A DNA stretch of 64,000 nt, taken from contig NZ_CP108538.1 of the NCBI RefSeq assembly GCF_035994185.1, positions 7,505,501-7,569,500 on the forward strand. The letters run 5' to 3'. A model generated the notes under the pieces. That model was not told where the DNA came from and ran no database searches. It saw only the letters and a list, made by a program, of their open reading frames with translations. Shown here in pieces: positions 32,018 through 63,976 of the stretch. Position numbers and translations under genes: made by a program. Positions within the stretch are counted from its first letter, which is position 1, and each line of letters starts with the position of its first letter. The stretch comes from Streptomyces sp. NBC_01217 (GTDB lineage Bacteria; Actinomycetota; Actinomycetes; Streptomycetales; Streptomycetaceae).

Positions 32018-35000
32018 TCATGCCGGGGTCAGCCGCACCGTCAGGATCTGGAACGGCCGCAGCGCCAGTACGAGACCGTGCTCATCGGTCGTCGCCCCGT
32101 GCAGGGGCCGCTCCAGCAGGTCGGTGATCTGTGCCTGTACGACGGGGAAGCCGACCCGTAGCGAGCCCTCGGCCCGGCCGCCCGCCGACTCGTACAGCCG
32201 CACGATCACATCGCCGCTGCGGTCCTCGGCGAGCTTCACCGACTCCACGGTGACCGCCGGATGCCCGGTGGTGATCAGCGACGGCACCGCTGGGGCCACC
32301 GCCGCCCGCAACGGCAGGTTGAGCGCGAGCCCCTCCCGTACCGCGTCCGTGACCTGTGCCCCGGGCGCCAGCGCGTACCGGAACCGGTGCGTGCCGAGGT
32401 CGGTCTCCGGATCCGGGCTGTGCGGGGCGCGCAGCAGCGTCAGCCGTACGGTCGTGCCGAGACCCGCATCGTGCGGGGTCCGGGTCACCTCGTGCCCGTA
32501 CGTCGAGTCGTTGAGCACCGCGACCCCGTAACCCGGCTCGGCCACCCGCAGCCAGCGGTGCGCGCAGATCTCGAAACGGGCCGCGTCCCAGCCGGTGTTG
32601 TCGTGCGTGGGCCGGTGGATGTGGCCGAACTGGATCTCGGCCGTGGACCGTTCGGCGTGCACATCGAGGGGGAACGCGGCCTTGAGCACCTTCTCCGACT
32701 CCTGCCAGTCCACCTCGGTGTCGATGTCGATCTGCCGGCTGCCCGCCGCCAGCCGGATCTCCTGCACGATCCGCGACTTCCCGAACGAACGCACCACGCG
32801 CACGGCGGACCGCAGCGGCCCCCGCTCGACCGGCTCCACGGAGTCGGCACCGGTCAGATCGGTGTGCGAGCGACGGTAGTGCCGGTCGATGTCCCAGGCA
32901 TCCCAGTGGTTGGGGTGATCCGGGTGCAGCTGGAGGAGATTGGCCCGGTGCCCCGGGACAAGGACCTCGCGCCCGGCGTCCAGATCGCGGACGGCGCAGA
33001 TCAGCCCGTCGGAGTCGACAGTGACGCGCAGCCGCCCGTTGTCGAGGACGGTCCCGCCGTCCGCCGTGCCGGTCGCGGTGGCCCGTGCCCGCGGCGCCGC
33101 CGCACCGTCGAGCGGTCCCGCGCCGAGCCCCGGCGACTCGGCGAGCACCGCCGTACGCCCGCCGCCCAGCGGCTGCACAAGCGCGCCGGACGGCAGCACC
33201 GCGCTCGCCTCCGCGTCCAGCTCGATCACCTGACTGCGGTCGTACGGGGACGAGTTGAGAGCCACCAGCCCCTGCGCGCCGCCCAGCGCCGTCACCGCGT
33301 CCGCCACCAGTTCCGCCAGCTCGGCGCGCACCTGCTCGTAGGTGTCGCGGGCCTCACGGTGCACCCAGGCGATCGACGAGCCCGGCAGGATGTCATGGAA
33401 CTGATGCAGCAGGACCGTCTTCCACACCCGGTCCAGAGTCTCGTACGGGTACCGGTAGCCGGGCGCCCGGAGCGCCGCCGCCGTGGCCCACAACTCGGCC
33501 TCGCGCAGCAGGTGTTCGCTGCGGCGGTTGCCCTGCTTGGTCTTGGCCTGGGTGGTGTACGTGGCCCGGTGCAGCTCCAGATACAGCTCGCCCGACCAGA
33601 CCGGCGCCTGCGGCCCGTACTCCTGCTCGGCCGCCGCGAAGAACGCCGACGGCCTGACGATCTCGACCCTCGGCGAACCCTCCAGATCCCTGAGCCTGCG
33701 CGCCTTCTCCAGCATCTCGCGGGTCGGGCCGCCTCCGCCGTCACCCCAGCCGAACGGGACGAGGGAACGGGTCGCCGGTCCCTTCTCCGCGAAGTTCCGT
33801 TCCGCGTGGGCGAGTTCTCGGCCATGGAACTGTGCGTTGTAGGTGTCCACGGGCGGGAAGTGGGTGAAGACTCTGGTCCCGTCGATGCCCTCCCACCAGA
33901 AGGTGTGATGCGGCATCTTATTGCTCTGGTTCCAGGACAGCTTCTGCGTCAGGAACCATTTCACCCCTGCCAGTCGCGCCAGTTGCGGGAAGGCAGCCGT
34001 GTAGCCGAAGGAGTCCGGCAGCCAGATCTCCTCCGTCTCCACCCCCAGCTCCTGCTCGAAGAACCGCTTTCCGTGCACGATCTGCCGGGCCAGTGCCTCA
34101 CCGCCCGGCATATTGGCGTCGGACTCCACCCACATCGACCCCACGGGCGCCCACTGCCCGTCCGCCACGGCCTGCTCGATGCGCGCCCAGATGTGCGGCT
34201 GGTGCTCCTTCACCCAGGCGTACTGCTGGGCCTGCGAAGCGGCGAAGACCAGCTCCGGATAGTCCTGGGCCAGGGCGGTGACATTGGCGAAGGTGCGCGA
34301 GGCCTTGCGCACCGTCTCGCGCAGCGGCCACAGCCAGGCCGAGTCGATGTGCGCGTGCCCGGTGGCCGAGATCCGGTGTGCGCTCGCCGACGCCGGGCGC
34401 GACAGGACCTCGGTCAGCCGTTCCCGGCCGGCCCGGGCCGTGCCCGTCACATCGTGCAGATCCAGCGCGTCCAGCATGTGCTCCAGCGCCCGCAGGATCT
34501 CGTGCCGCCGGGAACGGTCCACGGGCAGTTCCCGCATCAGCTCGCAGAGCACCTCGATGTCCAGTACGAGATGCCAGACCTCCTCGTCCAGCACGGCGAG
34601 GTCCGCGGAGGCGAACCGGTAGAGGGGCCGGTCACCCGCCGTCCTTACGTCTCCGAGAGGCGTCGGCGTGAAGCCGTGCTCCAGGACCGCCGGGTTGGCC
34701 GCGGCCTCCAGGAGCAGCGAGACAGGTTCGCCGCCCGCGGCCGGGGACGCGACCGTCAGATGCCGGTTGCGCGGGTGGACGCCCTTGAGCGGGACGCCCT
34801 CGGTGTCGTACAGCATGCCCTCGGCCTGGAATCCGGGGCCCTGACCGGAGAAGCCGGGGTCGACGACCACCTCGACCCGTCGTCCCGCCCAGTCCTCGGG
34901 CACCGTTCCCTCCAGCCGGAACCAGCTGGTGGACCATGGCTTCCCCCACTCCGTACCCGCGCTGAAGGGCTCGTACGTCCCCTTCAGCGCCTCGGCCACC

Positions 35001-35131
35001 GGTACGGGCTCGCCGGGGATGTGGTGGACGGAGAGGGTGAGCCAGGTGCGGGCCGGGTACTGGGCGGGGCGGATGAACTGGTGGAGGGCCCGTTCGAGGC
35101 GGTCCTCCACCAGGGTGCGGTCGTCGTGCAT
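32018..35131 (-). CDS. Glycoside hydrolase family 38 alpha-mannosidase
   Basis: Retaining, zinc-dependent alpha-mannosidase of 1037 aa with no signal peptide, so cytoplasmic. After an N-terminal beta domain, the GH38 catalytic domain carries the zinc ligands in GHAHIDSAWLWPLRET (H261, D263), the nucleophile D373 in EIWLPDSFGY, and the downstream FHDILPGSSI histidine. The C-terminal half is the beta-rich domain of the family. GAGGAG precedes the ATG at 35131. The role would be trimming mannose from imported oligosaccharides or glycopeptides. It is divergent from the hydroxyproline cluster; whether it is co-regulated is unknown. Confidence 0.93.
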   Translation of the reverse strand: MHDDRTLVEDRLERALHQFIRPAQYPARTWLTLSVHHIPGEPVPVAEALKGTYEPFSAGTEWGKPWSTSWFRLEGTVPEDWAGRRVEVVVDPGFSGQGPGFQAEGMLYDTEGVPLKGVHPRNRHLTVASPAAGGEPVSLLLEAAANPAVLEHGFTPTPLGDVRTAGDRPLYRFASADLAVLDEEVWHLVLDIEVLCELMRELPVDRSRRHEILRALEHMLDALDLHDVTGTARAGRERLTEVLSRPASASAHRISATGHAHIDSAWLWPLRETVRKASRTFANVTALAQDYPELVFAASQAQQYAWVKEHQPHIWARIEQAVADGQWAPVGSMWVESDANMPGGEALARQIVHGKRFFEQELGVETEEIWLPDSFGYTAAFPQLARLAGVKWFLTQKLSWNQSNKMPHHTFWWEGIDGTRVFTHFPPVDTYNAQFHGRELAHAERNFAEKGPATRSLVPFGWGDGGGGPTREMLEKARRLRDLEGSPRVEIVRPSAFFAAAEQEYGPQAPVWSGELYLELHRATYTTQAKTKQGNRRSEHLLREAELWATAAALRAPGYRYPYETLDRVWKTVLLHQFHDILPGSSIAWVHREARDTYEQVRAELAELVADAVTALGGAQGLVALNSSPYDRSQVIELDAEASAVLPSGALVQPLGGGRTAVLAESPGLGAGPLDGAAAPRARATATGTADGGTVLDNGRLRVTVDSDGLICAVRDLDAGREVLVPGHRANLLQLHPDHPNHWDAWDIDRHYRRSHTDLTGADSVEPVERGPLRSAVRVVRSFGKSRIVQEIRLAAGSRQIDIDTEVDWQESEKVLKAAFPLDVHAERSTAEIQFGHIHRPTHDNTGWDAARFEICAHRWLRVAEPGYGVAVLNDSTYGHEVTRTPHDAGLGTTVRLTLLRAPHSPDPETDLGTHRFRYALAPGAQVTDAVREGLALNLPLRAAVAPAVPSLITTGHPAVTVESVKLAEDRSGDVIVRLYESAGGRAEGSLRVGFPVVQAQITDLLERPLHGATTDEHGLVLALRPFQILTVRLTPA

Positions 35132-35272
35132 CACGGCTCCTCGGGGTCGGCGCCTGGGGTGTGTCCATGGCTCCACTTCCCCGGCGGCGCGACCGGCACC
35201 CCTGCGATCGGTGCGAGGGGGTGACGGCCGGTCAACCGGCCCTGTGCGCGCACCCTTGGCGACCCAAAAGCA

Positions 35273-35286
35273 ATGTGACATATTAC
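35273..35286 (+). promoter_or_regulatory. TGTGACAT motif in promoter of the hydroxyproline cluster
   Basis: TGTGACAT at 35274-35281, running directly into the -10-like TATTAC (35281-35286), just before the first gene of the cluster. A repressor bound here would cover the promoter. See the related copies at 38364, 41357 and 42381-42434. Assigned to the cluster's GntR regulator by inference. Confidence 0.55.
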
Positions 35287-35296
35287 TGCCGTGCTC

Positions 35297-36457
35297 ATGA
35301 GACAGCCCCTGGATGTCGTCGTCGTCGGGGCCGGAGTGGTAGGTGCGGCCTGCGCCTACTACGCCTCCCGGTCCGGACTGTCCGTGGCCGTCGTCGACCG
35401 CGGACCGGTCGCCGGGGGCACCACAGGAGCCGGGGAGGGCAACCTCCTGGTCTCCGACAAAGTACCGGGACCCGAACTGGAACTGGCCCTTCTCTCCGCC
35501 TCCTTGTGGCGCCGGCTGTCGGAGGAACTTGCCTCCGACATCGAGTACGAGCAGAAGGGCGGCCTGGTCGTGGCGGCGTCCGGGGACTCGCTGACCGCCC
35601 TGGACGCGACCGCCGCCGGCCAGCGGGGAGCCGGAGTCGAGGCGTACCACGTCACATCCGACCGGCTCCGCGATGTCGAGCCCCACCTCGCACCGGGCCT
35701 CGCCGGAGGGTGCCACTACCCGCAGGATGCCCAGGTCCAACCGGCCCTGGCAGCAGCCGAGTTGTTACGGGCAGCCGGTCGGGCCGGGGCTCGCCTGCGC
35801 CTGGGGGAGGAGGTCGTCGGGATCCTCAGGGACCGGGAGGGCGCGGTACGCGGGGTGCGCACCGCACGGGACGAACTGCGCGCCCCGGTGGTCGTCAACG
35901 CGGCGGGCACCTGGGGCGGCGAACTGGCCGCGCTGGCCGGGGTGGGCCTGCCGGTCCTGCCGCGCCGGGGATTCGTGCTCGTCACCGAGCCGCTGCCGCG
36001 GCTGATCCGGCACAAGGTCTACGCGGCGGAGTACGTGGCCGATGTGTCGAGCGGGTCCGCGGCGCTCCAGACCTCCCCGGTGGTGGAGGGAACCCCCGCG
36101 GGGCCGGTGCTGATCGGGGCCAGCCGCGAGCGGGTCGGCTTCGACCGGACGCTGTCGGTCCCGGTGATCGCCCGGCTCGCCGCCCAGGCCGCCGCACTCT
36201 TTCCCGTACTGGCGGATGTGCGGGTACTGCGCGCCTACCACGGGTTTCGCCCCTACCTGCCGGATCATCTGCCCGCGATCGGCCCGGACCCCCGGGTGCC
36301 CGGTCTCTTCCACGCCTGCGGGCACGAAGGAGCCGGAATCGGGCTGGCCCCCGCGACCGGCCTGCTGATCGCCGAAGCGCTGGCCGGGCAACAGCCCGTA
36401 CTCGATCTCGGACCGTTCGCCCCGGACCGGTTCGACACCACATGCCATGCCCCATGA
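35297..36457 (+). CDS. D-hydroxyproline dehydrogenase, FAD (DAO-type) subunit
   Basis: Oxidises cis-4-hydroxy-D-proline to 1-pyrroline-4-hydroxy-2-carboxylate as part of a multi-subunit enzyme (386 aa). The N-terminal dinucleotide fold VVVVGAGVVGAACAYYAS, the FAD motif VDRGPVAGGTTGAGEGN, and the C-terminal GLFHACGHEGAGIGLAPATG place it in the DAO family, close to the beta subunit of HcnC/LhpB-type dehydrogenases. Its stop overlaps the next start (ATGA). No ribosome-binding site precedes ATG 35297 or the in-frame GTG 35291, and a -10-like TATTAC ends 4-10 nt before them, so the transcript may be leaderless. Substrate is inferred from the epimerase and deaminase downstream. Confidence 0.85.
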   Translation: MRQPLDVVVVGAGVVGAACAYYASRSGLSVAVVDRGPVAGGTTGAGEGNLLVSDKVPGPELELALLSASLWRRLSEELASDIEYEQKGGLVVAASGDSLTALDATAAGQRGAGVEAYHVTSDRLRDVEPHLAPGLAGGCHYPQDAQVQPALAAAELLRAAGRAGARLRLGEEVVGILRDREGAVRGVRTARDELRAPVVVNAAGTWGGELAALAGVGLPVLPRRGFVLVTEPLPRLIRHKVYAAEYVADVSSGSAALQTSPVVEGTPAGPVLIGASRERVGFDRTLSVPVIARLAAQAAALFPVLADVRVLRAYHGFRPYLPDHLPAIGPDPRVPGLFHACGHEGAGIGLAPATGLLIAEALAGQQPVLDLGPFAPDRFDTTCHAP

Positions 36458-36819
36458 CGGCGGAGGGGCCCCGTGCCCCGGGAGAGGACCCTGTGAGACG
36501 CAGCCGTGCACGCACCCCCGCCGAACTCGTCGGGGCACAGCCCGGACCGGAATTCCGGCTGACCTTCGACGGACGTGCGATCCGTGGACTGCCGGGCCAG
36601 AGCATCGCCGCCGCACTCTGGTCGGCGGGCATCCTGACCTGGCGCACCACCCGGGTCCACGGCAGGCCGCGGGGAGCCTTCTGCGGCATCGGTGCCTGTT
36701 ATGACTGCCTGGCCACCGTCAACGGCCGGCCCAACCAGCGCGCGTGCCTGCTGCCCGCCCGGCCCGGCGACGCCATCACCACACAGGAGGGCGACGGGCA
36801 TGCCGTGCTCGACGGATGA
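36454..36819 (+). CDS. D-hydroxyproline dehydrogenase, small [2Fe-2S] subunit
   Basis: A 121-residue ferredoxin-like subunit of the HcnA type. The plant-type [2Fe-2S] motif CGIGACYDCLATVNG with a fourth Cys in QRAC is at about residues 78-100; DGRAIRGLPGQSIAAALWSAG before it is the conserved ubiquitin-like beginning. It overlaps the DAO subunit by 4 bp and the following flavoprotein gene by 20 bp. It presumably passes electrons between the two flavin subunits. The first 30 residues (Arg- and Pro-rich) have no counterpart that I recognise. Confidence 0.87.
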   Translation: MTAEGPRAPGEDPVRRSRARTPAELVGAQPGPEFRLTFDGRAIRGLPGQSIAAALWSAGILTWRTTRVHGRPRGAFCGIGACYDCLATVNGRPNQRACLLPARPGDAITTQEGDGHAVLDG

Positions 36820-38326
36820 CCACCGGTCAGGGGATGGGGACCGCGCCGAGCTCGCCGTGGTGGGCGCGGGGCCGGCCGGCCTGGCCGCGGCCGTCACAGC
36901 GGCGGACCACGGGCTCGCCGTGGTTCTGCTGGACGCGTCCGTCACGCCCGGTGGGCAGTACTACCGCAGCCCGGCCGACGGGCTCGGCGCCACCCGGCCC
37001 GCCGCCCTCCACCACGCCTGGCCGGTCTTCGCCGCACTCTCCGCACGACTTGCCGCGCACCGCGCGTCCGGCGCGATCCGCCATCTCCCCGGTCACCAGG
37101 TGTGGACGCTCGAACGAGCCGGTGACGGCGACTGGGTGCTGCACGCCGTGACCGGAACCGAGGAGGATCGCCACTCTGTCGTCCGGGCCCGCCGGCTGCT
37201 GCTGGCCACGGGCGCCCATGAACGCCAACTACCCTTCCCCGGCTGGACACTTCCCGGTGTCGTGGGCGCGGCCGGTGCCCAGGCGTTGCTCAAGTCCGGT
37301 CTGGTGCTGCCCGGTCGCCGGATCGTGGTCGCGGGGAGCGGACCGCTCCTGCAGGCCGTCGCCCTCTCGCTGACGCGTGCCGGGGCGAGCGTTCCTGTGC
37401 TGATCGAGGCGTCGGGCTATGGGGTGTACGCACGTGCACCCGGGGTGCTGGCCGCCAACCCCGGCAAGTTGGCGGAAGGAGTCCGGCACGGGGCGTCACT
37501 GACCCGTGCCGGAGTCCGGGTGCTGACCCACCGGGCGGTCACCGAAGTGCACGGCGATGACCGGGTGGAGGCGGTGACCGTCAGCCGGGTGGACCGACAG
37601 TGGCGTCCGCTGCCCGGGACCGGCCGCGAGATCGCCTGCGATGCGCTCGCCGTGGGACACGGGCTCGTTCCTCAGCTGGAACTCGCCCTGGCGGCGGGCT
37701 GCGATACGCGCGTGGGCGCCGACGGTACGCATGCGGTCACCCTCGACGAGCGGCTCAGGACCACCGTGCCAGGGGTCTGGGCGGCAGGGGAGACCGGCGG
37801 CATCGGTGGTGTGGAACTTGCCCTGTGTGAAGGGGAGTTGGCGGCGTTGTCCATCAGCTGTGAGGTACGGGACGAGGTGCGGCGGACAGCGGCGCGCAGA
37901 GCGGTCGCCCTGCGTCGTGCCCGGCGCCGCCTGCGGGCCTTCGCCTCGTTGATGGGCGCCGTGCACCGGCCGGGGGCGGGATGGCGCGAGTGGCTCACCG
38001 CCGACACGGAGGTCTGCCGTTGCGAAGAGGTCACCGCGGGCCGGATCCGTACCGCGTGCGAGGAACTCGGAGCCGGTGACACCAGGACCGTCAAACTGCT
38101 GACCCGGGCCGGAATGGGGTGGTGCCAGGGCCGGACCTGCGGATTCGCCGTCCGCGAACTGGCTGCCGCACACGGCACGGGACACGGCACCGGAGGCGGC
38201 TCCCGACGTCGTTGCGTTGAGGAGCAGGAGGGGCCCGGCCCCGACCGGCGACCGCTGGCCTGCCCCGTGACACTGTCCACGCTCGCCGGCCTGACCGACC
38301 CCGGGGAGACCACAGCCACACCCTGA
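36800..38326 (+). CDS. D-hydroxyproline dehydrogenase, NAD(P)/FAD-type alpha subunit
   Basis: A 508-residue flavoprotein like the HcnB/LhpF or sarcosine-oxidase alpha subunits. FAD-binding fold near the start (LAVVGAGPAGLAAAVTAADHG, TPGGQYY), second dinucleotide fold RRIVVAGSGPLLQAVAL at about 170, GVWAAGETGGIGGVELAL at about 330, and a C-terminal BFD-like [2Fe-2S] domain with cysteines in VCRCEEV and GMGWCQGRTCG. AGGAGGG precedes ATG 36800. About 40 extra, low-complexity residues follow the BFD domain. Works with the two preceding gene products, probably donating electrons to the respiratory chain. Confidence 0.87.
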   Translation: MPCSTDDHRSGDGDRAELAVVGAGPAGLAAAVTAADHGLAVVLLDASVTPGGQYYRSPADGLGATRPAALHHAWPVFAALSARLAAHRASGAIRHLPGHQVWTLERAGDGDWVLHAVTGTEEDRHSVVRARRLLLATGAHERQLPFPGWTLPGVVGAAGAQALLKSGLVLPGRRIVVAGSGPLLQAVALSLTRAGASVPVLIEASGYGVYARAPGVLAANPGKLAEGVRHGASLTRAGVRVLTHRAVTEVHGDDRVEAVTVSRVDRQWRPLPGTGREIACDALAVGHGLVPQLELALAAGCDTRVGADGTHAVTLDERLRTTVPGVWAAGETGGIGGVELALCEGELAALSISCEVRDEVRRTAARRAVALRRARRRLRAFASLMGAVHRPGAGWREWLTADTEVCRCEEVTAGRIRTACEELGAGDTRTVKLLTRAGMGWCQGRTCGFAVRELAAAHGTGHGTGGGSRRRCVEEQEGPGPDRRPLACPVTLSTLAGLTDPGETTATP

Positions 38327-38363
38327 CACCTCTCTCCTACGCCTCGGCACACCGCGCCGTGGC

Positions 38364-38371
38364 ATGTCACA
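38364..38371 (-). promoter_or_regulatory. TGTGACAT motif before the deaminase gene
   Basis: ATGTCACA on the plus strand (TGTGACAT on minus), in the 62-bp gap between the alpha-subunit and DapA-family genes, 18 bp before the start codon and just before the ribosome-binding site AAGGAG. The same octamer is found in two other gaps of the locus. Confidence 0.5.
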
Positions 38372-38388
38372 CCTCTCAAGGAGTCACG

Positions 38389-39297
38389 ATGCAGACGAAC
38401 GCCCACCCGCGCAGCCGCCCCTGGCACGGTGTCATGGTCGCCACACCACTGACCCTGCGCGACGACTGCACCATCGACTACGACGCGTACGCCGCGCACG
38501 TCCACCAGCTCATCGCGGCGGGCTGCGACGGTGTGGTGCCCAATGGATCGCTGGGGGAGTACCAGACCCTGACCGACAGCGAACGCGAGCAGGTGGTCCG
38601 GGTCGCCGTCGAGGCGGCGGGCGACGGCAGCCGCGTCATGCCGGGGGTCTCCGCCTACGGCAGCGCGGAGTCACGGCGCTGGGCGGAACAGGCCGCGGAG
38701 GCGGGCGCCGGTTGTGTTCTGCTCCTGCCGCCCAACGGCTACCGCTGCGAGGACGCGGCGGTCCGCGCCCACTACGCGGCCGTGGCCGAAGCAGGGGTTC
38801 CGGTCGTCGCGTACAACAACCCCTACGACACCAAGGTGGATCTGACCCCGGGCCTGCTCGCCACCCTCCACCAGGAGGGCAGCATCGTGGCGGTCAAGGA
38901 GTTCAGCGGCGACGTGCGAAGGGCGTACGAGATCGCCGAGCGAGCGCCGGGCCTCGACCTGCTCGTGGGCGCCGACGACGTCCTGCTGGAACTGGCACTC
39001 GCCGGGGCCGTCGGCTGGATCGCGGGCTGCCCGAACATGCTGCCGTCCTGCTGCGTCGAGCTGTACCGGGCCGCTGTGACGGGTGACATGGCAACTGCCC
39101 TGCCGCTGTACCGGGAGCTGCATCCCCTGCTCCGATGGGACTCGAAGCCGGAGTTCGTCCAGGCCATCAAGGCATCCATGGACGTGGTCGGACGCCACGG
39201 CGGCCGTACCCGCCCGCCACGCCTTCCCCTGCCCGCCGACGACGCGGCCGCCGTACGCGCCGCGACGGAGAAGGTACTGGCGGGGGGCCTCGCCTGA
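38389..39297 (+). CDS. 1-pyrroline-4-hydroxy-2-carboxylate deaminase (DapA family)
   Basis: Schiff-base enzyme that converts 1-pyrroline-4-hydroxy-2-carboxylate to 2-oxoglutarate semialdehyde and ammonia, the third step of hydroxyproline degradation. The 302-residue TIM barrel has the DapA-family Schiff-base lysine K170 (VAVKEFSGD), proton-relay Y142 (YNNPYDT) and the substrate-carboxylate loop GSLGEYQTLT (in place of the GTTGE of true dihydrodipicolinate synthase). AAGGAG precedes ATG 38389. The family is broad; the assignment rests on the neighbours (epimerase and D-Hyp dehydrogenase). The next enzyme, 2-oxoglutarate semialdehyde dehydrogenase, is not in the window. Confidence 0.85.
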   Translation: MQTNAHPRSRPWHGVMVATPLTLRDDCTIDYDAYAAHVHQLIAAGCDGVVPNGSLGEYQTLTDSEREQVVRVAVEAAGDGSRVMPGVSAYGSAESRRWAEQAAEAGAGCVLLLPPNGYRCEDAAVRAHYAAVAEAGVPVVAYNNPYDTKVDLTPGLLATLHQEGSIVAVKEFSGDVRRAYEIAERAPGLDLLVGADDVLLELALAGAVGWIAGCPNMLPSCCVELYRAAVTGDMATALPLYRELHPLLRWDSKPEFVQAIKASMDVVGRHGGRTRPPRLPLPADDAAAVRAATEKVLAGGLA

Positions 39298-39371
39298 ACG
39301 CCGGCCCGCCGACGCACACCCTTGCCCGTACCCGACCCGGCCGTGTCCTTCTTGCCGAACCAGGGAGAGCC

Positions 39372-40373
39372 TTGCAGACACGTCATATCTTCCATGCCGT
39401 CGACTCACACACCGAAGGCATGCCCACCCGCGTCATCACCGGTGGCATCGGCACCATCCCCGGTGCCACGATGGCCGAACGGCGCAGGTACTTCCAGGAG
39501 CACCGGGACGCCGTGCGCACCCTGCTCATGTACGAACCCCGCGGCCACGCCGCCATGAGCGGCGCCATCCTCCAGCCGCCCACCCGGCCCGACGCGGACT
39601 TCGGCGTCCTCTACATAGAGGTCTCGGGCTTTCTGCCGATGTGCGGGCACGGCACCATCGGCGTCGCGACCGTTCTGGTGGAGACCGGCATGGTCGAGGT
39701 GACCGAGCCCGTCACCACCGTACGGCTGGACACCCCGGCCGGACTCGTCAGCGTCGACGTCCGGGTACGCGACGGCGCGGCCGTCGCCGTCACCCTGACC
39801 AACGTCCCCGCGTTCAGCGTCGCACTCGACCGGACGGCGGACGTGCCCGGCTACGGAGCGGTGCGCTACGACCTCGCCTACGGCGGCAACTTCTACGCGA
39901 TGGTGCACCTCTCCGACCTCGGGCTGCCCTTCGACCGGGCACGCAAGGAGGACATCCTGTCGGCGGGACTCGCCCTGATGGACGCGGTCAATGCCGCCGA
40001 CCGGCCCGTCCACCCGGAGGATCCGGACATCCACGGACTCAAGCACGTGCAGTTCGTCGCACCCGGTTCCGATGCCCGCCACTCCCGGCACGCGATGGCG
40101 ATCCACCCCGGCTGGTTCGACCGGTCGCCCTGCGGAACCGGCACTTCGGCACGTATGGCCCAGCTGCACGCGCGCGGTGAACTTCCCCTGGACACCGACT
40201 TCGTGAACGAGTCCTTCATCGGCACCTCGTTCACCGGGCGCCTCGTCGATGAGACCACCGTGGCCGGGCGGCCCGCCGTCGTCCCCACCGTCACAGGACG
40301 GGCCTGGATCACCGGTACCGCACAATTCTTCCTGGACCCGTCCGACCCCTTCCCCGAAGGATTCCTGTTGTGA
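39372..40373 (+). CDS. 4-hydroxyproline 2-epimerase (proline racemase family)
   Basis: Converts trans-4-hydroxy-L-proline to cis-4-hydroxy-D-proline without cofactor. The 333-residue protein begins with the family signature IFHAVDSHTEGMPTRVITGG and has both catalytic cysteines: C91 in MCGHGTIG and C254 in SPCGTGTSARMA. Two cysteines identify a racemase/epimerase; the trans-3-hydroxyproline dehydratases of this family have Thr at the second site. TTG at 39372 is the likely start, with CAGGGAGAG just upstream; no ATG occurs before the conserved sequence. Overlaps the next gene by 4 bp (GTGA). Proline racemase is the alternative, but the catabolic neighbours favour hydroxyproline. Confidence 0.9.
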   Translation: MQTRHIFHAVDSHTEGMPTRVITGGIGTIPGATMAERRRYFQEHRDAVRTLLMYEPRGHAAMSGAILQPPTRPDADFGVLYIEVSGFLPMCGHGTIGVATVLVETGMVEVTEPVTTVRLDTPAGLVSVDVRVRDGAAVAVTLTNVPAFSVALDRTADVPGYGAVRYDLAYGGNFYAMVHLSDLGLPFDRARKEDILSAGLALMDAVNAADRPVHPEDPDIHGLKHVQFVAPGSDARHSRHAMAIHPGWFDRSPCGTGTSARMAQLHARGELPLDTDFVNESFIGTSFTGRLVDETTVAGRPAVVPTVTGRAWITGTAQFFLDPSDPFPEGFLL

Positions 40374-41314
40374 ATCTGCCCCTGCTCGGCGCCGACGACA
40401 TCGAGGCCCTGGGACCGACCGGAGCCGCGGACGCCCTGGAGGCGGCGCTGAGCGGGGGACTCGATCCGGAGAGAACCCCCGCCCGGCACCATGTCACCGT
40501 GCCCGGCGGGGAACTGCTGATCATGCCCGCCACCACCCGGCAGGTGACCGGGGTGAAGATCGCCGGAGTCGCGCCGGGCAACCCGGCGCGCAACCTGCCC
40601 CGGATCACCGGGAGCTATCTGCTGCTCGACGGCCCCACTCTGCTGCCGCTCGCCCTGCTCGACGGGGCCGCGCTCACCGCGCTGCGCACACCGGCCGTGT
40701 CCGCACTCGCGATCCGGCACCTCACCGGGCCCGTCGTGCGGCATCTGGTGCTCTTCGGAACCGGCCCCCAGGCATACGGACACCTTGCCGCGGTGCTCGC
40801 CGAACGGCCCGTCGAACGCGTCACCGTGATCGGCCGTACCCCGCACCGGGTCGCCGCACTGGTCGAGCACGCCCGCCGGCTCGGCACGGACGCCCGTGCG
40901 GGTGGGGCGCGCGGGGCCGAGGAGGTCGCGACGGCCGATCTGGTGCTCTGCTGCACCACGTCCGCAACCCCGCTGTTCGACGGCACCCTCGTACCGGACG
41001 GGGCGACGGTCGTGGCGGTCGGCTCGCACAGCCCGGATGCCCGGGAGGTCGACACCGCTCTAGTGGCGCGCTCCGCCGTGATCGTCGAATCGAGGTCGGC
41101 GGCCCTGTCGGAGGCGGGCGATCTGCTGATCCCGATGGCGGAAGGAGCGTTCACAGCCGAGTCCGTCGCCGCCAATCTTGCCGAGCTGGTGGCGGGCCGG
41201 AGCCTCGGTGGGAAAGCGGCCGACCCGGAGCGCCCACGGCTCTTCAAGAGCGTCGGAATGGGCTGGGAGGACCTCGCGGTCGCGGCCGCGGTGCACCGGA
41301 AGTCGGCGCCCTGA
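40370..41314 (+). CDS. Ornithine cyclodeaminase/mu-crystallin family protein
   Basis: A 314-residue NAD(P)H-binding enzyme. Motifs: PARHHVTVPGGELLIMPA, GVKIAGVAPGNP, the Rossmann fold HLVLFGTGPQAYGHLAAVLAE at about 125, and VVAVGSHSPDAREVD. Family members include ornithine cyclodeaminase and ketimine reductases that reduce 1-pyrroline-2-carboxylate to L-proline. In this operon a 1-pyrroline-2-carboxylate-like reductase (as in trans-3-hydroxyproline use) fits better than ornithine cyclodeaminase, but the partner dehydratase is absent, so the exact substrate is open. GTG start overlaps the epimerase stop, which makes co-translation certain. Confidence 0.83.
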   Translation: MNLPLLGADDIEALGPTGAADALEAALSGGLDPERTPARHHVTVPGGELLIMPATTRQVTGVKIAGVAPGNPARNLPRITGSYLLLDGPTLLPLALLDGAALTALRTPAVSALAIRHLTGPVVRHLVLFGTGPQAYGHLAAVLAERPVERVTVIGRTPHRVAALVEHARRLGTDARAGGARGAEEVATADLVLCCTTSATPLFDGTLVPDGATVVAVGSHSPDAREVDTALVARSAVIVESRSAALSEAGDLLIPMAEGAFTAESVAANLAELVAGRSLGGKAADPERPRLFKSVGMGWEDLAVAAAVHRKSAP

Positions 41315-41355
41315 CCTGGTTGTCCACAGGCGGGGAACGACGGGCCCGGGTGGAA

Positions 41356-41370
41356 ATTTGACATTGTATT
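41356..41370 (+). promoter_or_regulatory. TTTGACAT variant motif before the GntR gene
   Basis: ATTTGACATTGTATT, 33 bp before the GntR start codon and its GGAGGAG ribosome-binding site. It shares TTGACAT/TTGTAT with the site at 42381-42399 (TGTGACAT ... CATTGTAC). Suggests autoregulation. Confidence 0.45.
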
Positions 41371-41402
41371 CTGAGGGCCCGTACGGCGCTGGAGGAGCAG
41401 AT

Positions 41403-42131
41403 ATGGCCCGCCTGACGACGCTCAACACCCTCTCGGCGCAGGAGCACTTGCGCGACCGAGTGGCGAACGCCCTCAGAGCGGCCCTGATCGCAGGGGATCT
41501 CCGTCCGGGCACGATCTACTCCGCTCCCGCGCTCGCCGCCGAATTCGGGGTGTCCGCCACCCCGGTCCGCGAGGCCATGCTCGACCTGGCGCGCGAGGGC
41601 CTGGTCGAAGCGGTCCGCAACAAGGGCTTTCGGATAACCGAGTTGACCGAGCAGGATCTCGACGACTTCACCGAACTCCGGGCCATGATCGAGGTCCCCA
41701 CCGTCGGGCGCATCGCCCGGATGGGCAAGGCCAAGGAGCTGAAGGCGCTGCGGCCGCTCGCCCTGGAGATCGTCGCCGCCGCTGCCGAGCACGACATCAT
41801 CGGCTACCTGGAGGCCGACCGCCGCTTCCATCTCGAACTGCTCGCCCTGGCCGGCAACCGTCGGCTGGTGGAGGAGGTCGGCAATCTGCGCAAGCGGTCG
41901 CGCCTCTTCGGGCTGAACCGGCTTGCCGCGACGGGAATGTTGACCGCATCGGCCGAGGAGCACGTCGAACTGCTCGATGTCATGATCGCCGGTGACGCAC
42001 AGCGCGCCGAGCGACGCATGCTGACCCATATGTCACATGTCAGGAACCTCTGGGCCGAGGAGCAGGCGCGCGACACGGGCACGGGAGACAGGCGGATCAA
42101 AAGGGTGCCGCTGCCGGTCGCCGAAGCCTGA
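41403..42131 (+). CDS. GntR family regulator (FadR subfamily, FCD domain)
   Basis: Probable regulator of the hydroxyproline cluster (242 aa). The winged helix is at residues 15-80 (HLRDRVANALRAALIAGDL, APALAAEFGVSATPVREAML, GLVEAVRNKGFRIT), and the all-helical FCD ligand-binding domain follows (ELRAMIEVPTVGRIARMG; D-x4-H-type metal motif DRRFHLELLALAGN; EEHVELLDVMIAGD). FCD regulators usually bind small organic acids through a metal. GGAGGAG precedes the ATG. It is the last gene of the catabolic block and lies just before the collagenase. A paralogue with the same YSAP-x-L...FGVSATPVREAM pattern is at 48870. Confidence 0.9.
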   Translation: MARLTTLNTLSAQEHLRDRVANALRAALIAGDLRPGTIYSAPALAAEFGVSATPVREAMLDLAREGLVEAVRNKGFRITELTEQDLDDFTELRAMIEVPTVGRIARMGKAKELKALRPLALEIVAAAAEHDIIGYLEADRRFHLELLALAGNRRLVEEVGNLRKRSRLFGLNRLAATGMLTASAEEHVELLDVMIAGDAQRAERRMLTHMSHVRNLWAEEQARDTGTGDRRIKRVPLPVAEA

Positions 42132-42159
42132 ACCGACTGCCTCGTCCGGGAGTTCCAGG

Positions 42160-42177
42160 GAGCGCGAAGCAGCGCTC
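42160..42177 (+). terminator. Weak stem-loop after the GntR gene
   Basis: GAGCGC and GCGCTC with a 6-nt loop, about 30 bp after the stop codon. The rest of 42178-42378 holds no gene that I can support. Confidence 0.35.
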
Positions 42178-42380
42178 GCCACGCGTGCCGTCGCGCCCGC
42201 GGAAGACTTCCACCACATCCTCGAACCCCGTCACCGTCGCATCGACGGACGGGGCCACGCCGCCGAGCGCCCGTACCGGTGGCGGCGACCGGGTGCGAGC
42301 GCGGGCTTCGGCTGAAATCCGTTGCTGGCTGGGGGAGTTGACGCGGAGGCGAATGCGTACGAGAGGGCTTCCGAAGGACA

Positions 42381-42434
42381 TGTGACATGTGCCATTGTAC
42401 AGCGCACAGAGGGAATGGGTCGTGTCCATGTCAC
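42381..42434. promoter_or_regulatory. Paired TGTGACAT sites upstream of the collagenase gene
   Basis: TGTGACAT at 42381-42388 and its inverted copy ATGTCACA at 42428-42435 lie in opposite orientation about 40 bp apart, with CATTGTAC (42393-42400) between them. They are 100-150 bp before the collagenase start codon. A regulator bound at both sites could loop or block the promoter. The same octamer precedes the Hyp-catabolic genes. Confidence 0.55.
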
Positions 42435-42532
42435 AACGTGAGCCGAAGTCGGACCCGGCCCGACCCGGCCCCCGCGCATTCCCCCACAGCCGCGCGCGGT
42501 CGCGCGGTCACCACTCCGCTGGGAGGCGGCAC

Positions 42533-44854
42533 GTGAAGAACCGAACGGTTCGACAGAGACTGACCGGACTGTCCACTGCGGTCCTGGCGGCATGCCTGGG
42601 CCTGGGCCTGCTCTCCGCACCGAGCCAGGCCGTCCAGCAGCGCCCCACCGCACCGTCCGCGACCGACCGCACCGGCCCCGCCGCCGAGGCGCCGACCGCG
42701 CCCGCCAACGACGCCGCCCACATCAGCCGCAAGGCCTTGAAGGCCGCCGACCGGCCGCCCCTGTCCGCGTCCAAGGACGCGCTCAGACGCGACTACGACG
42801 ACCCCGGCGCCGCGCTCCCGAGCCACCCGGCTCCTTCGATGAAGGCCGGAGCCGGGGCCCGGCCCGCGGCCGCCTGCGAGGTCGGCGACTTCACCGGCCG
42901 CACCGGAAGCGCCCTCGTCCAGCAGATCAAGGCATCTACCGCCGACTGCGTCAACACGCTGTTCGGGGTCAAGGGCAACGACGGCTATCTGGCCTTCCGC
43001 GAGGCGCAGATGGTCACCGTCGCCGGCGCCCTGCGCGAGGGGTCGGCCGCCTATCCCGGGGACAGCAGCACCGGCATGCCCCAGCTGGTCCTCTATCTCC
43101 GGGCCGGGTACTACGTGCAGTACTACGACCCCGGCACCGTGGGCAGCTACGGGCCGCAGCTGCGTATGGCCGTGCAGGGCGGGCTCGACGCGTTCTTCGG
43201 CGCCTCCCACGCCTTCGACGTCACCGACGCCAACGGTGAGACCCTGGCCGAGGCCGTCACATTGATCGACAGCGCCGAGCAGAATGCCCGCTACCTGTAT
43301 GTCGTCAAGCGGATGCTGGCCGACTACGACGCCTCGTACGACGGCTCCTGGTACATGCTCAACGCGCTGAACAACGTATACACGGTGACATTCCGCGGTC
43401 ACCAACTGCCGGAGTTCATCAGTGCCGTGGAGTCCGATCCGAGTCTGCTGGACGCGCTCCACGACTTCGCATCGCGCCATCTCGACCTGCTGGGTACGGA
43501 CCGGTCGTACCTGACCTCCAACGCCGGGCGCGAGCTGGGCCGCTTCCTCCAGGAGGCATCACTGCGACCGTCGGTGCGTCCGCTCGCCGCCGGACTGCTC
43601 GGCCGGAGCTCCCTCACCGGCCCCACCGCCCCGCTCTGGGTCGGTGTCGCGGAGATGGCCGACGCCTACGACAGGGCGAACTGCTCGTACTACGGCACCT
43701 GCGACCTCGCACAGCGTCTCAAGAGCGCCGTCCTGCCCGTCAACCACGCCTGCAGCGACAGCATCCGCATCCTGGCGCAGCAGATGTCCGCCGCGGACCT
43801 CGCCGCGAGCTGTACCAGTCTGCGCGGCCAGGACTCCTACTTCCATGGCATCGCCCGGGACCAGGGGCCGGTCGTTGGCGACCGCAACACCACCATCGAG
43901 GTCGTGGTCTTCGACTCCAGCACCGACTACCAGACCTACGCCGGCGCGATCTACGGCATCGACACCGACAACGGCGGCATGTACCTGGAGGGTGATCCCT
44001 CGGCCGCCGGGAACCAGCCCCGGTTCATCGCCTACGAGGCCGAGTGGGTCCGCCCCGAGTTCCAGATCTGGAACCTCAACCACGAGTACACGCACTACCT
44101 TGACGGCCGCTTCGACATGTACGGCGATTTCGACGCCGGAACGATCACGCCGACCATCTGGTGGGTCGAGGGCTTCGCGGAGTACGTCTCGTACTCGTAC
44201 CGCGATGTCACGTACGACGACGCCGTCGCCCGGGCCGCGGCCCACACCTACACCCTGCGGACCCTGTTCGACACCACGTACGACAACGCCGACCAGATCC
44301 GCGTCTACAACTGGGGCTATCTGGCGGTCCGTTACATGCTGCAGTCCCACCGCGCGGACGTGGACACCCTCCTCGGCCTCTATCGCAGGGGCGACTGGAA
44401 CGGCGCCCGCACCCTGCTCACCTCGACCATAGGAAGCCGTTACGACGCCGACTGGAACGCCTGGCTGACCGCCTGCGCGGCCGGCAGCTGCGGTACCGTC
44501 ACCGACCCGCCCACCGACCCCTCGGCCGAGTGCACGGGCGGCGACACCCGGGAGCTGGGCAAGGACTGCAGGCGCAGTGGGCTCGCCGCGACCCGGGGCA
44601 ACTACTCCTATCTGTACCTCTACATTCCGGCGGGCACCGCCCGGCTGACGATCACCGCGTCGGGCGGCACTGGCGACGCCGACCTCTACTACGGCGCGGA
44701 CGGCTGGGCGACCACGGGTGCGTACTCCCAGCGGGCCGTCGGCGCCGGGAACGCGCACACGCTGACCATCGACCACCCGGCGGCCGGAGCCCACTTCATC
44801 AGTCTCCACGCCGTCGAGGGCTTCGACGGTGTGACCGTCTCCACTCACTACTGA
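42533..44854 (+). CDS. Secreted M9 family collagenase
   Basis: Extracellular zinc metalloprotease that cleaves native or denatured collagen (773 aa). Signal peptide from MKNRTVRQRL to PSQA (about 33 residues), a propeptide-like region, the M9 N-terminal activator domain (about 100-400), then the peptidase unit with zinc motif HEYTH (H517-H521) and the third-ligand Glu in WVEGFAEYV (546-550). A C-terminal pre-peptidase (PPC) domain at about 685-773 (ARLTITASGGTGDADLYYGA) helps binding or folding. GTG start at 42533 has GGGAGGCGG ahead and gives a clean signal peptide; earlier ATGs at 42389 and 42428 would add an Arg-rich leader. No PKD domain is evident. Confidence 0.93.
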   Translation: MKNRTVRQRLTGLSTAVLAACLGLGLLSAPSQAVQQRPTAPSATDRTGPAAEAPTAPANDAAHISRKALKAADRPPLSASKDALRRDYDDPGAALPSHPAPSMKAGAGARPAAACEVGDFTGRTGSALVQQIKASTADCVNTLFGVKGNDGYLAFREAQMVTVAGALREGSAAYPGDSSTGMPQLVLYLRAGYYVQYYDPGTVGSYGPQLRMAVQGGLDAFFGASHAFDVTDANGETLAEAVTLIDSAEQNARYLYVVKRMLADYDASYDGSWYMLNALNNVYTVTFRGHQLPEFISAVESDPSLLDALHDFASRHLDLLGTDRSYLTSNAGRELGRFLQEASLRPSVRPLAAGLLGRSSLTGPTAPLWVGVAEMADAYDRANCSYYGTCDLAQRLKSAVLPVNHACSDSIRILAQQMSAADLAASCTSLRGQDSYFHGIARDQGPVVGDRNTTIEVVVFDSSTDYQTYAGAIYGIDTDNGGMYLEGDPSAAGNQPRFIAYEAEWVRPEFQIWNLNHEYTHYLDGRFDMYGDFDAGTITPTIWWVEGFAEYVSYSYRDVTYDDAVARAAAHTYTLRTLFDTTYDNADQIRVYNWGYLAVRYMLQSHRADVDTLLGLYRRGDWNGARTLLTSTIGSRYDADWNAWLTACAAGSCGTVTDPPTDPSAECTGGDTRELGKDCRRSGLAATRGNYSYLYLYIPAGTARLTITASGGTGDADLYYGADGWATTGAYSQRAVGAGNAHTLTIDHPAAGAHFISLHAVEGFDGVTVSTHY

Positions 44855-47875: not shown

Positions 47876-48724
47876 TCAGTGAGTGGGCGTCAGTTTCCGT
47901 ACGCGCTCGGCATCACAGGTGCGCGGGCAGGTGACGCAGGTGTCCTCGGGGCGCAGCGTGTAGAAGAGGCAGCAGCTCGCCCGGTCGCGGGTGGGCAGCG
48001 ATTCGCCGTTCGGCCCGGTCAGTTCACGGAAGCCCGCCGTGCCGACGTACGGCTTCGTGGTGCCCGGCAGGAGCGCCTCCAGCTCGGCCATCGCCCGCCG
48101 CTCCTCGCCGAGCAGATGGGCGATGTACCAGAGGCCCTCGACGACCTCGTCCGTCGCCATGCCCCACAGCGCCCGCTTGCCGCGCCGCATCCGTGGTCCG
48201 AAGCCGTCCAGCACCGGGCCGATGTGGTCGGCCACGGCGGCGAGCACCTCTGCCCGCAGCGCCGCCTCGTCGGAGACCACCCGGGCACCCGGCAGCCCGG
48301 CCGCCGGATCGTCCGGGAGGCAGGCGAATTCCCTTACGCGGAGGGTCAGATGGCCCAGGGTCCGCTGGAACGACACATCCTCGACGGGGACCCGGGGCAC
48401 TCGCCGGTGCAGGAACCACGGCACCGTCACCAGCAGGCAGGCGGGCCAGGCGTACCGGTGCAGTCCGAAGCTTGCGACCACATCGGGGCGGGGCTGCTGC
48501 CCGTAGTCCCGCACCACCTGCTCGTGGTCCCAGGCGAGGAAGGCGTCGAGCGCGGCACCACCGGCGGCCAGCTCGTGCGCTCCCACCCAGCCGGAATCGC
48601 GGGGGGCGCTCTCGCCGTCCGTCAGCACCTCTGCGCGCAGCCCGGGGAAGACCTCGGCCAGGCGTGCGTACGCGCCCGTCACGGCGGACGCGGTGGTACC
48701 GGGAAGGAGAACGGGGGGTGTCAT
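47876..48724 (-). CDS. FhuF-like (2Fe-2S) siderophore-iron reductase
   Basis: Probably reduces ferric siderophores to free iron in the cytoplasm (282 aa). The C-terminal CC-x10-C-x2-C motif (SCCLFYTLRPEDTCVTCPRTC) is the unusual [2Fe-2S] site of FhuF. The rest is a helical fold with HRYAWPACLLVTVPWFLHR and RRGKRALWGMATDEVVEGLWYIAHLLG (in parts), as in FhuF-like proteins. An iron box lies 28-46 bp upstream of the start, so expression should rise under iron limitation. It is divergent from a GntR gene. Confidence 0.88.
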   Translation of the reverse strand: MTPPVLLPGTTASAVTGAYARLAEVFPGLRAEVLTDGESAPRDSGWVGAHELAAGGAALDAFLAWDHEQVVRDYGQQPRPDVVASFGLHRYAWPACLLVTVPWFLHRRVPRVPVEDVSFQRTLGHLTLRVREFACLPDDPAAGLPGARVVSDEAALRAEVLAAVADHIGPVLDGFGPRMRRGKRALWGMATDEVVEGLWYIAHLLGEERRAMAELEALLPGTTKPYVGTAGFRELTGPNGESLPTRDRASCCLFYTLRPEDTCVTCPRTCDAERVRKLTPTH

Positions 48725-48869: not shown

Positions 48870-49706
48870 GTGGAGCAGCGCAGAGGGCGTGAGCAGGCAC
48901 GGACGTCGCACACGTCCATCGCGTCCATGGCGACCCCGGCCTCCGTCCGGGTGCCCGAGCAGTCACGCGGCGATCAGGCTCGCGGTGAACAGGTACGCGG
49001 TGATGAGGCTCGCGGTGAACAGCCCCGCAGTGAGCAGGTGCGTGGCGAGCACACCCACAGCGGGCCGACCGCCCCGCGCCATGCGGTACGGCGTCACTCC
49101 GTGCGCGGCCAGATCCTGGACGCCCTGCGCGCCGCCCTGGTCGACGGTCAGCTCGTCCCCGGGCAGGTCTACTCCGCCCCCGTCCTCGGTGTCCGCTTCG
49201 GGGTCTCCGCGACCCCGGTGCGTGAGGCCATGCAGCAGTTGGCCATCGAGGGTGCCGTCGAGGTCGTACCGAACCGCGGCTTCCGGGTGTCCGAGCGGGG
49301 CCCGCGTGAGCTGGCCGAGCTGGCCGAGGTGCGGGCCCTGATCGAGGTCCCGGTCATGCTGCGACTGGCCCGCAGCGTCCCGCCCGCCCGCTGGTGCGCA
49401 CTGCGCCCGCTGGCCGACGCCACCGTAGCGGCCGCGGCCGTGGGCGACCGGGCCGGCTACGCCGAGTCCGACCGGGTCTTCCACAGCGCGGTCCTCGCGC
49501 TCTGCGGCAACGAGCAGCTGGTGATGGTCGCAGACGATCTGCACCGCCGCTCCCAGTGGCCCCTGGGGAACAATCCCGTCACCCGCCGCGCCGACCTCCT
49601 GGCCGACGCCGCCGAACACACCGCCCTGCTCGACGCGCTCATCGCCAAGGACCTCGCCGTCGTGCAGTCGCTCGTACGGGAGCACTTCACCGGCGCCGAG
49701 GGCTGA
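48870..49706 (+). CDS. GntR family regulator (FCD) with repetitive N-terminal tail
   Basis: A 278-residue FadR-subfamily regulator. Residues 1-75 are disordered and contain six pentapeptide repeats of the form RG(D/E)Q-x. The winged helix follows (HSVRGQILDALRAALVDGQL, YSAPVLGVRFGVSATPVREAM, GAVEVVPNRGFRVSER), then the FCD domain (VRALIEVPVMLRLARSVPP; DRVFHSAVLALCGN; EHTALLDALIAKD). It is clearly a paralogue of the GntR at 41403. GAGGAGG gives the GTG start. The signal it senses is unknown. It is divergent from the FhuF-like gene. Confidence 0.88.
   Translation: MEQRRGREQARTSHTSIASMATPASVRVPEQSRGDQARGEQVRGDEARGEQPRSEQVRGEHTHSGPTAPRHAVRRHSVRGQILDALRAALVDGQLVPGQVYSAPVLGVRFGVSATPVREAMQQLAIEGAVEVVPNRGFRVSERGPRELAELAEVRALIEVPVMLRLARSVPPARWCALRPLADATVAAAAVGDRAGYAESDRVFHSAVLALCGNEQLVMVADDLHRRSQWPLGNNPVTRRADLLADAAEHTALLDALIAKDLAVVQSLVREHFTGAEG
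48966..49055 (+). repeat. 15-bp coding repeats in GntR tail
   Basis: Six consecutive 15-bp units (consensus CGCGGTGAACAGGCT) encode RGDQA, RGEQV, RGDEA, RGEQP, RSEQV and RGEHT. The pattern indicates tandem expansion within the N-terminal tail of the regulator. Confidence 0.85.
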
Positions 49707-63460: not shown

Positions 63461-63976
63461 ATGTCGTCCTCCCCTTCCCGTAATCGCCCTTCCTTCGACG
63501 CGGACGAGCGGACTCAGCTGGTCGGCTGGCTCGACCTCCAGCGGGCGATCGCCCGCTGGAAGTGCGAAGGGCTGTCGGAGGCGGACGCCCACCGGCCCGT
63601 CCTTCCCGCCTCGCCCCACATGACGGTTGCGGGTGTCATGTCACACCTTCGATGGGCCGAGCACCTCTGGTACGAGGTCGTCCTGCTGGGCCGTCCGGCC
63701 GTCGGGCCCATGTTCGACGGGCCCGAGGACGCCGACATGATGGTCGAAGGTGTCCCGCTCGCAGAGCTCCTCGACGACTACGACCGGCAGACGGTGGTGT
63801 CGAACGAGATCGTTGCGGCGAAGTCGCTCGACGACGTGGGCCGGCACCCGGACTTCGATGCCTCGGCCGCGAGCGTGCGCTGGATCATGTTCCACATGAT
63901 CGAGGAGACCGCCCGCCACGCGGGCCATCTGGACGCGATCAGAGAGATCCTGGACGGCGAGAAGGGCCACTACTGA
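63461..63976 (+). CDS. DinB family protein
   Basis: A 171-residue four-helix-bundle protein of the DinB/DUF664 superfamily, which in actinobacteria includes mycothiol- and bacillithiol-dependent transferases. The pattern LVGWLDLQRAIARWKCEGLSE, MTVAGVMSHLRWAEHLWYEVVLLG (His as first metal ligand), and MFHMIEETARHAGHLDAIREIL (two more His) gives three histidines suited to bind a divalent metal. The reaction is unknown. A -10-like TAGTCT ends 8 nt before the ATG with no Shine-Dalgarno, so the message may be leaderless. It sits just downstream of the S8 protease terminator. Confidence 0.88.
   Translation: MSSSPSRNRPSFDADERTQLVGWLDLQRAIARWKCEGLSEADAHRPVLPASPHMTVAGVMSHLRWAEHLWYEVVLLGRPAVGPMFDGPEDADMMVEGVPLAELLDDYDRQTVVSNEIVAAKSLDDVGRHPDFDASAASVRWIMFHMIEETARHAGHLDAIREILDGEKGHY

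Follow-up and report, generated by a model that had tools for sequence, protein, structure and literature searches.

We found that a 64,000-nucleotide stretch of the 9,034,013-base genome of Streptomyces sp. NBC_01217 (positions 7505501-7569500, hereafter the window) carries what is, with a probability of about 0.9, a compact version of the Streptomyces HypR regulon, in which a collagenase and the use of hydroxyproline (Hyp) stand under one repressor. The FCD-GntR protein encoded at 41403-42131 is, judging from its sequence and setting, very probably the HypR orthologue, and a seven-base core, GTGACAT, is the part that the target regions compared among relatives share. The regulon itself is known; what is added here is the linked arrangement of the collagenase, a sharper description of the operator and a possible intragenic site.

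The known regulon was characterized in S. coelicolor (Kotowska et al. 2019, PMC6608401). There HypR (SCO6294), an FCD-GntR protein, acts as a repressor of the five Hyp genes also found here, of an M9 collagenase and of its own gene. Its binding site at the hypR promoter is TACAATGTCAC, and it recognizes related words ahead of SCO6289, SCO5912 and SCO5281; the consensus is CTNTGC(A/C)ATGTCAC, whose reverse complement includes GTGACAT. Deletion of hypR activates the promoters of SCO6289, SCO5912 (the M9 collagenase) and SCO5281, while L-Hyp induces those of hypR and SCO6289, and growth on L-Hyp requires the epimerase SCO6293. Binding of HypR to DNA in vitro is unaffected by L-Hyp or D-Hyp and is prevented by zinc ions. 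A preliminary description of the window, made from its letters alone, knew of no account of a unit combining collagen attack and Hyp use under one regulator; reading it as an undescribed unit is rejected, since this paper had already reported the regulon, collagenase included. Beyond Kotowska et al. 2019, we found no paper on the collagenase of the regulon in the literature as far as it was accessible; PMC9739823, in its accessible part, cites HypR.

The window shares with the S. coelicolor system the regulator family, the five Hyp genes in the same order, an M9 target, the core ATGTCAC / GTGACAT and, as predicted, autoregulation. It differs in that its collagenase lies beside hypR whereas SCO5912 is at a distant locus, in having an OCD gene inserted after the epimerase, ahead of hypR, and a further site in front of the deaminase, and in a collagenase with no PKD domain detected by Pfam (E 0.001) where SCO5912 is listed with one; the S. 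coelicolor regulon also has SCO5281 (kgd) as a further target. Two other systems resemble it in part. S. lividans TK24 grows on trans-4-hydroxy-L-proline (t4Hyp) and induces the epimerase and its neighbours (SCO6289-6293 primers; eLife 2014;3:e03275, PMC4113996), a paper whose main text, as available, does not contain the words collagen or GntR. The HypR of Sinorhizobium meliloti (White et al. 2012, cited in PMC6608401), likened here by description, is also a GntR/FadR-type repressor of Hyp catabolism, but HypO, the dehydrogenase of that system, is not significantly homologous to the three-subunit enzyme (PMC6608401).

The genes of the cluster, in window coordinates, are as follows.

35291-36457, plus strand: D-hydroxyproline dehydrogenase beta subunit (dhB), DAO family (PF01266, E 6.7e-75), counterpart of SCO6289.
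36454-36819, plus strand: D-hydroxyproline dehydrogenase gamma subunit, 2Fe-2S, Fer2_4 (PF13510, E 6.1e-26, 36457-36819 searched), counterpart of SCO6290; start set by eye.
36800-38326, plus strand: D-hydroxyproline dehydrogenase alpha subunit (dhA), Pyr_redox_2 and Fer2_BFD (PF07992, E 2.6e-27; PF04324, E 2.3e-08; 36818-38326 searched), counterpart of SCO6291; start set by eye.
38389-39297, plus strand: pyrroline-4-hydroxy-2-carboxylate deaminase, DapA family (PF00701, E 1.1e-46), counterpart of SCO6292.
39372-40373, plus strand: 4-hydroxyproline epimerase with a TTG start (PF05544, E 5e-131; NF010578, 357 bits, below the 376-bit cut-off), counterpart of SCO6293.
40370-41314, plus strand: OCD/mu-crystallin family, probable Delta1-pyrroline-2-carboxylate reductase (PF02423, E 3.6e-45; NF004793, 227.5 bits, below the 322-bit cut-off).
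41403-42131, plus strand: hypR, FCD-GntR regulator and putative repressor (PF00392, E 6.7e-17; PF07729, E 7e-22), assigned by alignment and tree.
42533-44854, plus strand: M9 collagenase with a GTG start set by eye (PF08453, E 1.8e-68; PF01752, E 6.5e-126; PF04151, E 3.6e-11).

The gene families, the conservation of the operator and the linkage are direct results of this analysis. Pfam confirmed every family that had been named beforehand, all on one strand and running in the order DAO, Fer2_4, Pyr_redox_2 + Fer2_BFD, DHDPS, Pro_racemase, OCD, GntR + FCD, and Peptidase_M9_N + M9 + PPC. The epimerase has both catalytic cysteine motifs, as previously noted (MCGHG and PCGTG), and a solved relative in 7pb3; it is the only Pro_racemase match in the genome, just as the collagenase is the only M9 match. 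The collagenase has its HExxH zinc site as HEYTH at residue 517, its nearest solved chain is 7esi_A (E 1.1e-117), and its N terminus resembles a signal peptide when read from the sequence, so that secretion is predicted. For the regulator, the family profile found 3fms_A, a GntR regulator, as its best match in the PDB, and residues D139, H143, H187 and H209, which we take to be the FCD metal ligands, are invariant across 12 aligned homologues. Among the best 80 of 581 stretches from named genomes, which include none from S. coelicolor, are S. atratus and S. gelaticus, with regulators 84% and 83% identical to that of the window.

The predicted operators of the window are the following.

35274-35288, plus strand: putative HypR operator or promoter element TGTGACATATTACTG, upstream of the dehydrogenase.
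38359-38371, minus strand: putative HypR operator before the deaminase, GTGGCATGTCACA, a near-palindrome.
41357-41371, plus strand: putative HypR autoregulatory operator TTTGACATTGTATTC, differing at one base from the core of the published footprint, GTGACATTGTA.
42027-42038, minus strand: intragenic operator-like site ATGTGACATATG at hypR codons 209-212, clade specific.
42380-42402, plus strand: putative collagenase operator ATGTGACATGTGCCATTGTACAG, readable as the heptads TGTGACA TGTGCCA TTGTACA.
42428-42435, minus strand: second octamer before the collagenase, inverted, an octamer match.

These sites extend an octamer, TGTGACAT, which is the reverse complement of ATGTCACA, the published motif core plus one base. 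It was present wherever it had been reported beforehand (35274 and 42381 on the plus strand, 38364 and 42428 on the minus strand), as was TTTGACAT at 41357 on the plus strand. Two more copies lie on the minus strand, at 42030 inside the regulator gene and at 63638 inside a MST/DinB-type gene (63461-63976), the latter presumably by chance. The six copies in the window compare with a mean of 0.70 (standard deviation 0.77) in dinucleotide shuffles, and none of 100 shuffles reached six, such that the earlier expectation of well under one copy was slightly optimistic. TTTGACAT alone is not significant, being seen once against 0.26 expected, with 23 of 100 shuffles reaching one.

Conservation was assessed in 80 neighbourhoods hand-picked from listed matches in 199 genomes of the genus, together with the best 80 of 581 confirmed stretches from named genomes. 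Excluding five of these 160 loci with an identical hypR stretch left 155 distinct loci, of which 140 span at least 20 kilobases (kb), 17 of them in the clade of the window (hypR identity of at least 76%) and 123 outside it. We searched for the core from -330 to +40 of each gene start and counted collagenases as the same type at 45% identity or more. GTGACAT was found before 135/155 hypR, 85/107 dhB, 73/123 deaminase and 33/41 collagenase genes, the four kinds of expected target, compared with 6/299 control genes (epimerase 1/120, dhA 2/114, OCD 3/53, and 0/12 for a second GntR gene, gntR2). Permuted heptamers averaged 1.0-2.4 matches in the four target sets, and few of the 629 permuted words reached the observed count (two for dhB, none for hypR, one each for deaminase and collagenase); those that did, ATGTGAC and TGTGACA for dhB, TGTGACA for the deaminase and TGACATG for the collagenase, are shifts of the same block. 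The epimerase showed no core enrichment, with 166 of 629 permuted words reaching its count. The check proposed with the preliminary description, for the octamer at orthologous positions in relatives, thus came out in favour of the regulon, with the core kept before the majority of the hypR, dhB, deaminase and collagenase genes and misses as these counts give. Upstream of hypR the longer word footprinted in S. coelicolor, TACAATGTCAC, was itself present in 115/155 loci.

The collagenase could instead be a syntenic passenger with incidental TGTGACAT copies, the regulator governing only the Hyp operon and itself. Such a reading would fit the distant position of SCO5912 in S. coelicolor (PMC6608401) and the presence of this collagenase type near hypR in only 24 of the 123 loci outside the clade. 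We nevertheless regard it as improbable, as the core precedes 33 of the 41 collagenases, a conserved 20-base word, TGTGACATGTGCCATTGTAC, occurs in 16 of the 17 clade collagenase promoters with one change in the remaining one (L035), and HypR binds and represses SCO5912 in spite of its being unlinked. Within the clade, the linkage is complete. In a tree of 141 HypR proteins, for which a protein with an internal stop was cut at the stop, the window regulator belongs to an 18-member clade supported at 100/100, and in 18/18 members (17 relatives' loci of at least 20 kb and the window) the collagenase lies downstream of hypR, on the same strand and within 3.1 kb.

Outside the clade, 40/123 loci hold a distant M9 homologue (<35% identity, in fact 22-28%) within the stretch, near the Hyp operon or hypR. 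These homologues (e.g., L048:778-2625, L061:3377-4939 and L072:10432-12396, about 25% identical to the window's collagenase) often lie just upstream of the Hyp operon, and three of three checked were true M9 by Pfam; they may represent another kind of collagenase that belongs to this regulon. On the tree, 11 changes are needed for each collagenase label, compared with averages of 36.7 and 35.3 for shuffled labels. Two loci (L153 and L165), with HypR proteins sharing 69-70% identity with that of the window, show the gene order of SCO6289-6295, including a divergent ABC transporter. In S. celluloflavus (L158:7264-17655), hypR is flanked by a collagenase (48% identical) and, in the other direction, by a Hyp operon that includes a second racemase as well as an OCD gene. 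Taken together, the arrangements in the clade, outside it and in L153 and L165 indicate that linkage of hypR and collagenase is common in the genus, and that the split in S. coelicolor is one arrangement among several. We did not find a report of this physical linkage in a literature search that left most subscription journals outside.

Across the whole genome, TGTGACAT occurs 70 times (0.50 per 64 kb) compared with 9 times for a backwards control, and five copies fall in a 7.2-kb part of the window where about 0.06 are expected from genome density, although this stretch was chosen after the fact; the octamer is therefore not rare as a word, and it is its clustering at the locus that stands out. 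The exact word GTGACATDKYAC was found in two places outside the window, one within coding sequence (L194) and the other in a gap preceding what by eye resembles a sugar-uptake gene (L195), and with at most one mismatch it gave 125 matches against 42 for its backwards control. We saw no evident Hyp- or collagen-related gene around 25 loci (some overlapping, genes identified by eye) among the 100 of these 125 matches that were listed. That GTGACAT is a general Streptomyces promoter or FCD-GntR word, used by several regulators and defining no single regulon, would accord with the genome-wide excess and with sites before unrelated genes such as, by eye, another FadR-type GntR (L229) and the sugar-uptake gene, but is very improbable given five copies at one pathway, the near absence of the core before epimerase, dhA, OCD and second GntR genes, and the match of the extended hypR site to the published HypR footprint.

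By sequence, the operator is longer than the octamer, as GTGACAT has another element behind it, which is TTGYAC, AKTACTG or GTGCCATTGTAC. The conserved block before hypR is AACGTGACATTGTAC, and before the clade collagenases it is ATGTGACATGTGCCATTGTAC, then A or T, then G, readable as TGTGACA-TGTGCCA-TTGTACW; the base following TGTGACATGTGCCATTGTAC is A in 10 of these promoters and T in 7. ATGTGACAT is a palindrome around one central base, and plus and minus copies consequently differ only at that base. The deaminase operator is a perfect palindrome, GTGACATGTCAC, in L031, L032, L033, L105, L106 and others. ATTGTA persists at hypR in seven listed clade loci without the exact octamer core, and the inverted core at the place equivalent to 42428 is present in 5/17 clade loci (L031, L033, L114, L115 and L120). 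Before dhB, the core is at -16 from the start in 59 of 85 plus-orientation sites, inside the block ATGTGACATATTACTG, and at this position within a conserved block it probably covers the promoter.

The site inside hypR is suggestive, though not proof, of an additional operator. Codons 209-212 (CAT ATG TCA CAT) contain the octamer, and the intragenic ATGTGACATAT has the same 11 bases as the dehydrogenase operator. TCA followed by CAT is kept in 10 of 20 clade hypR genes, including that of the window, while outside the clade the serine position is mostly Gly or Ala. We compared 795 invariant codon columns of four genes, with a mean A/T-third fraction of 9.3%, and found 70% at H209 and 65% at H212, which rank first and second among 25 His columns, and 50% at S211, the top value among 31 Ser columns. 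Against an operator, shared descent is not removed from these fractions, other columns reach higher ones, and the spacing from the collagenase operator is not constant, being about 350 bases in the window but about 2 kb in L031. It is conceivable, though we hold it doubtful, that in the clade the triple-heptad operator and an operator inside the 3' end of hypR together control the collagenase by blocking read-through or forming a higher-order complex between hypR and collagenase.

Several observations weigh against the HypR reading. Orthology with SCO6294 is based on gene order, operator and relatives rather than on direct alignment, and in the window the core before hypR is itself mismatched (TTTGACAT), with the published operator TACAATGTCAC (reverse complement GTGACATTGTA) present there with one mismatch as TTGACATTGTA. 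The exact core is missing from 20/155 hypR, 22/107 dhB, 50/123 deaminase and 8/41 collagenase regions, some of which have a changed form, and as exact words the published 11-mers are rare elsewhere than at hypR (dhB 17/107, deaminase 5/123, collagenase 2/41). The counts are also not independent, given that the choice of loci depended on a HypR homologue, that many of them are closely related and that one site in a short divergent gap can be scored for two genes. The Hyp genes lie outside the stretch in 2/17 clade relatives (L035 and L117), and the same collagenase type is, as given above, infrequent outside the clade. In one further locus (L039) the Hyp genes are about 7 kb from hypR.

If the window cluster works as the HypR regulon does, HypR would occupy the GTGACAT-core operators when substrate is lacking and would repress four units, namely the operon running from the dehydrogenase through deaminase and epimerase to OCD, probably an additional start ahead of the deaminase, hypR itself and the M9 collagenase. 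Trans-4-hydroxy-L-proline from collagen peptides would then be converted to a pathway metabolite, probably made after D-Hyp, that relieves the repressor, and collagen attack and Hyp use would increase together. That this strain behaves as S. coelicolor does is our inference, as are the internal start, the kind of ligand and the role of collagen as natural source. Control of collagenase and Hyp genes by one FCD-GntR through a shared motif, as originally proposed, is supported by the S. coelicolor experiments (PMC6608401) and by conservation over 155 loci, with the amendment that the operator extends beyond the octamer. The companion proposal of a regulator that senses a Hyp-derived ligand and switches the genes on agrees with relief by L-Hyp in vivo in S. 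coelicolor and needs revision in that HypR is a repressor whose binding in vitro neither L-Hyp nor D-Hyp affects, according to the same text.

The pathway, earlier called a complete entry pathway, is so as far as the deaminase; an alpha-ketoglutarate-semialdehyde dehydrogenase was not among the Pfam-annotated genes of 35291-44854. In one relative, an aldehyde dehydrogenase gene (L183:8583-9950) located after the epimerase and ahead of hypR may provide the last step of the Hyp pathway; it has no counterpart in the window cluster. This protein matched 19 places in the window's genome, at best with 40% identity, all general kin and none within the window; the second-best match (38%) is an aldehyde dehydrogenase frame with the octamer about 280 bases upstream (genome position 6552978, L234). 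No transporter was among the genes of 35291-44854, the remaining window not being annotated for transporters.

The OCD gene is present in 6/18 clade members, window included. A second racemase homologue of relatives was not found in the window's own genome, which has one Pro_racemase match. Its top model is the T3LHyp dehydratase NF045511 (261 and 293 bits against a cut-off of 540), and it keeps ACGHG in 45/46 and SPCGSG in 18 of 20 listed. Dehydratase-type racemase homologues typically lack one Cys. The second racemase and OCD gene may form a trans-3-Hyp module in relatives, for which the dehydratase model scores best yet both Cys motifs are kept. Downstream of the collagenase, the second FCD-GntR gene (gntR2, 48870-49706) is divergent from a gene with an FhuF C-terminal 2Fe-2S domain (47876-48724), and in 12/17 clade loci it follows the collagenase inside the stretch compared, with GTGACAT before it in 0/12 regions. 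Upstream of the dehydrogenase, a frame of about 1040 amino acids on the other strand (32018-35137), which may encode a mannosidase, is syntenic in several clade loci.

These results provide independent support, over 155 loci, that the HypR regulon couples extracellular collagen breakdown with intracellular Hyp use in many Streptomyces. The ligand of HypR was left as an open point by the 2019 work (PMC6608401), and the linked clade is well suited to finding it, since regulator, Hyp genes and collagenase all fit on a single 10-kb clone.

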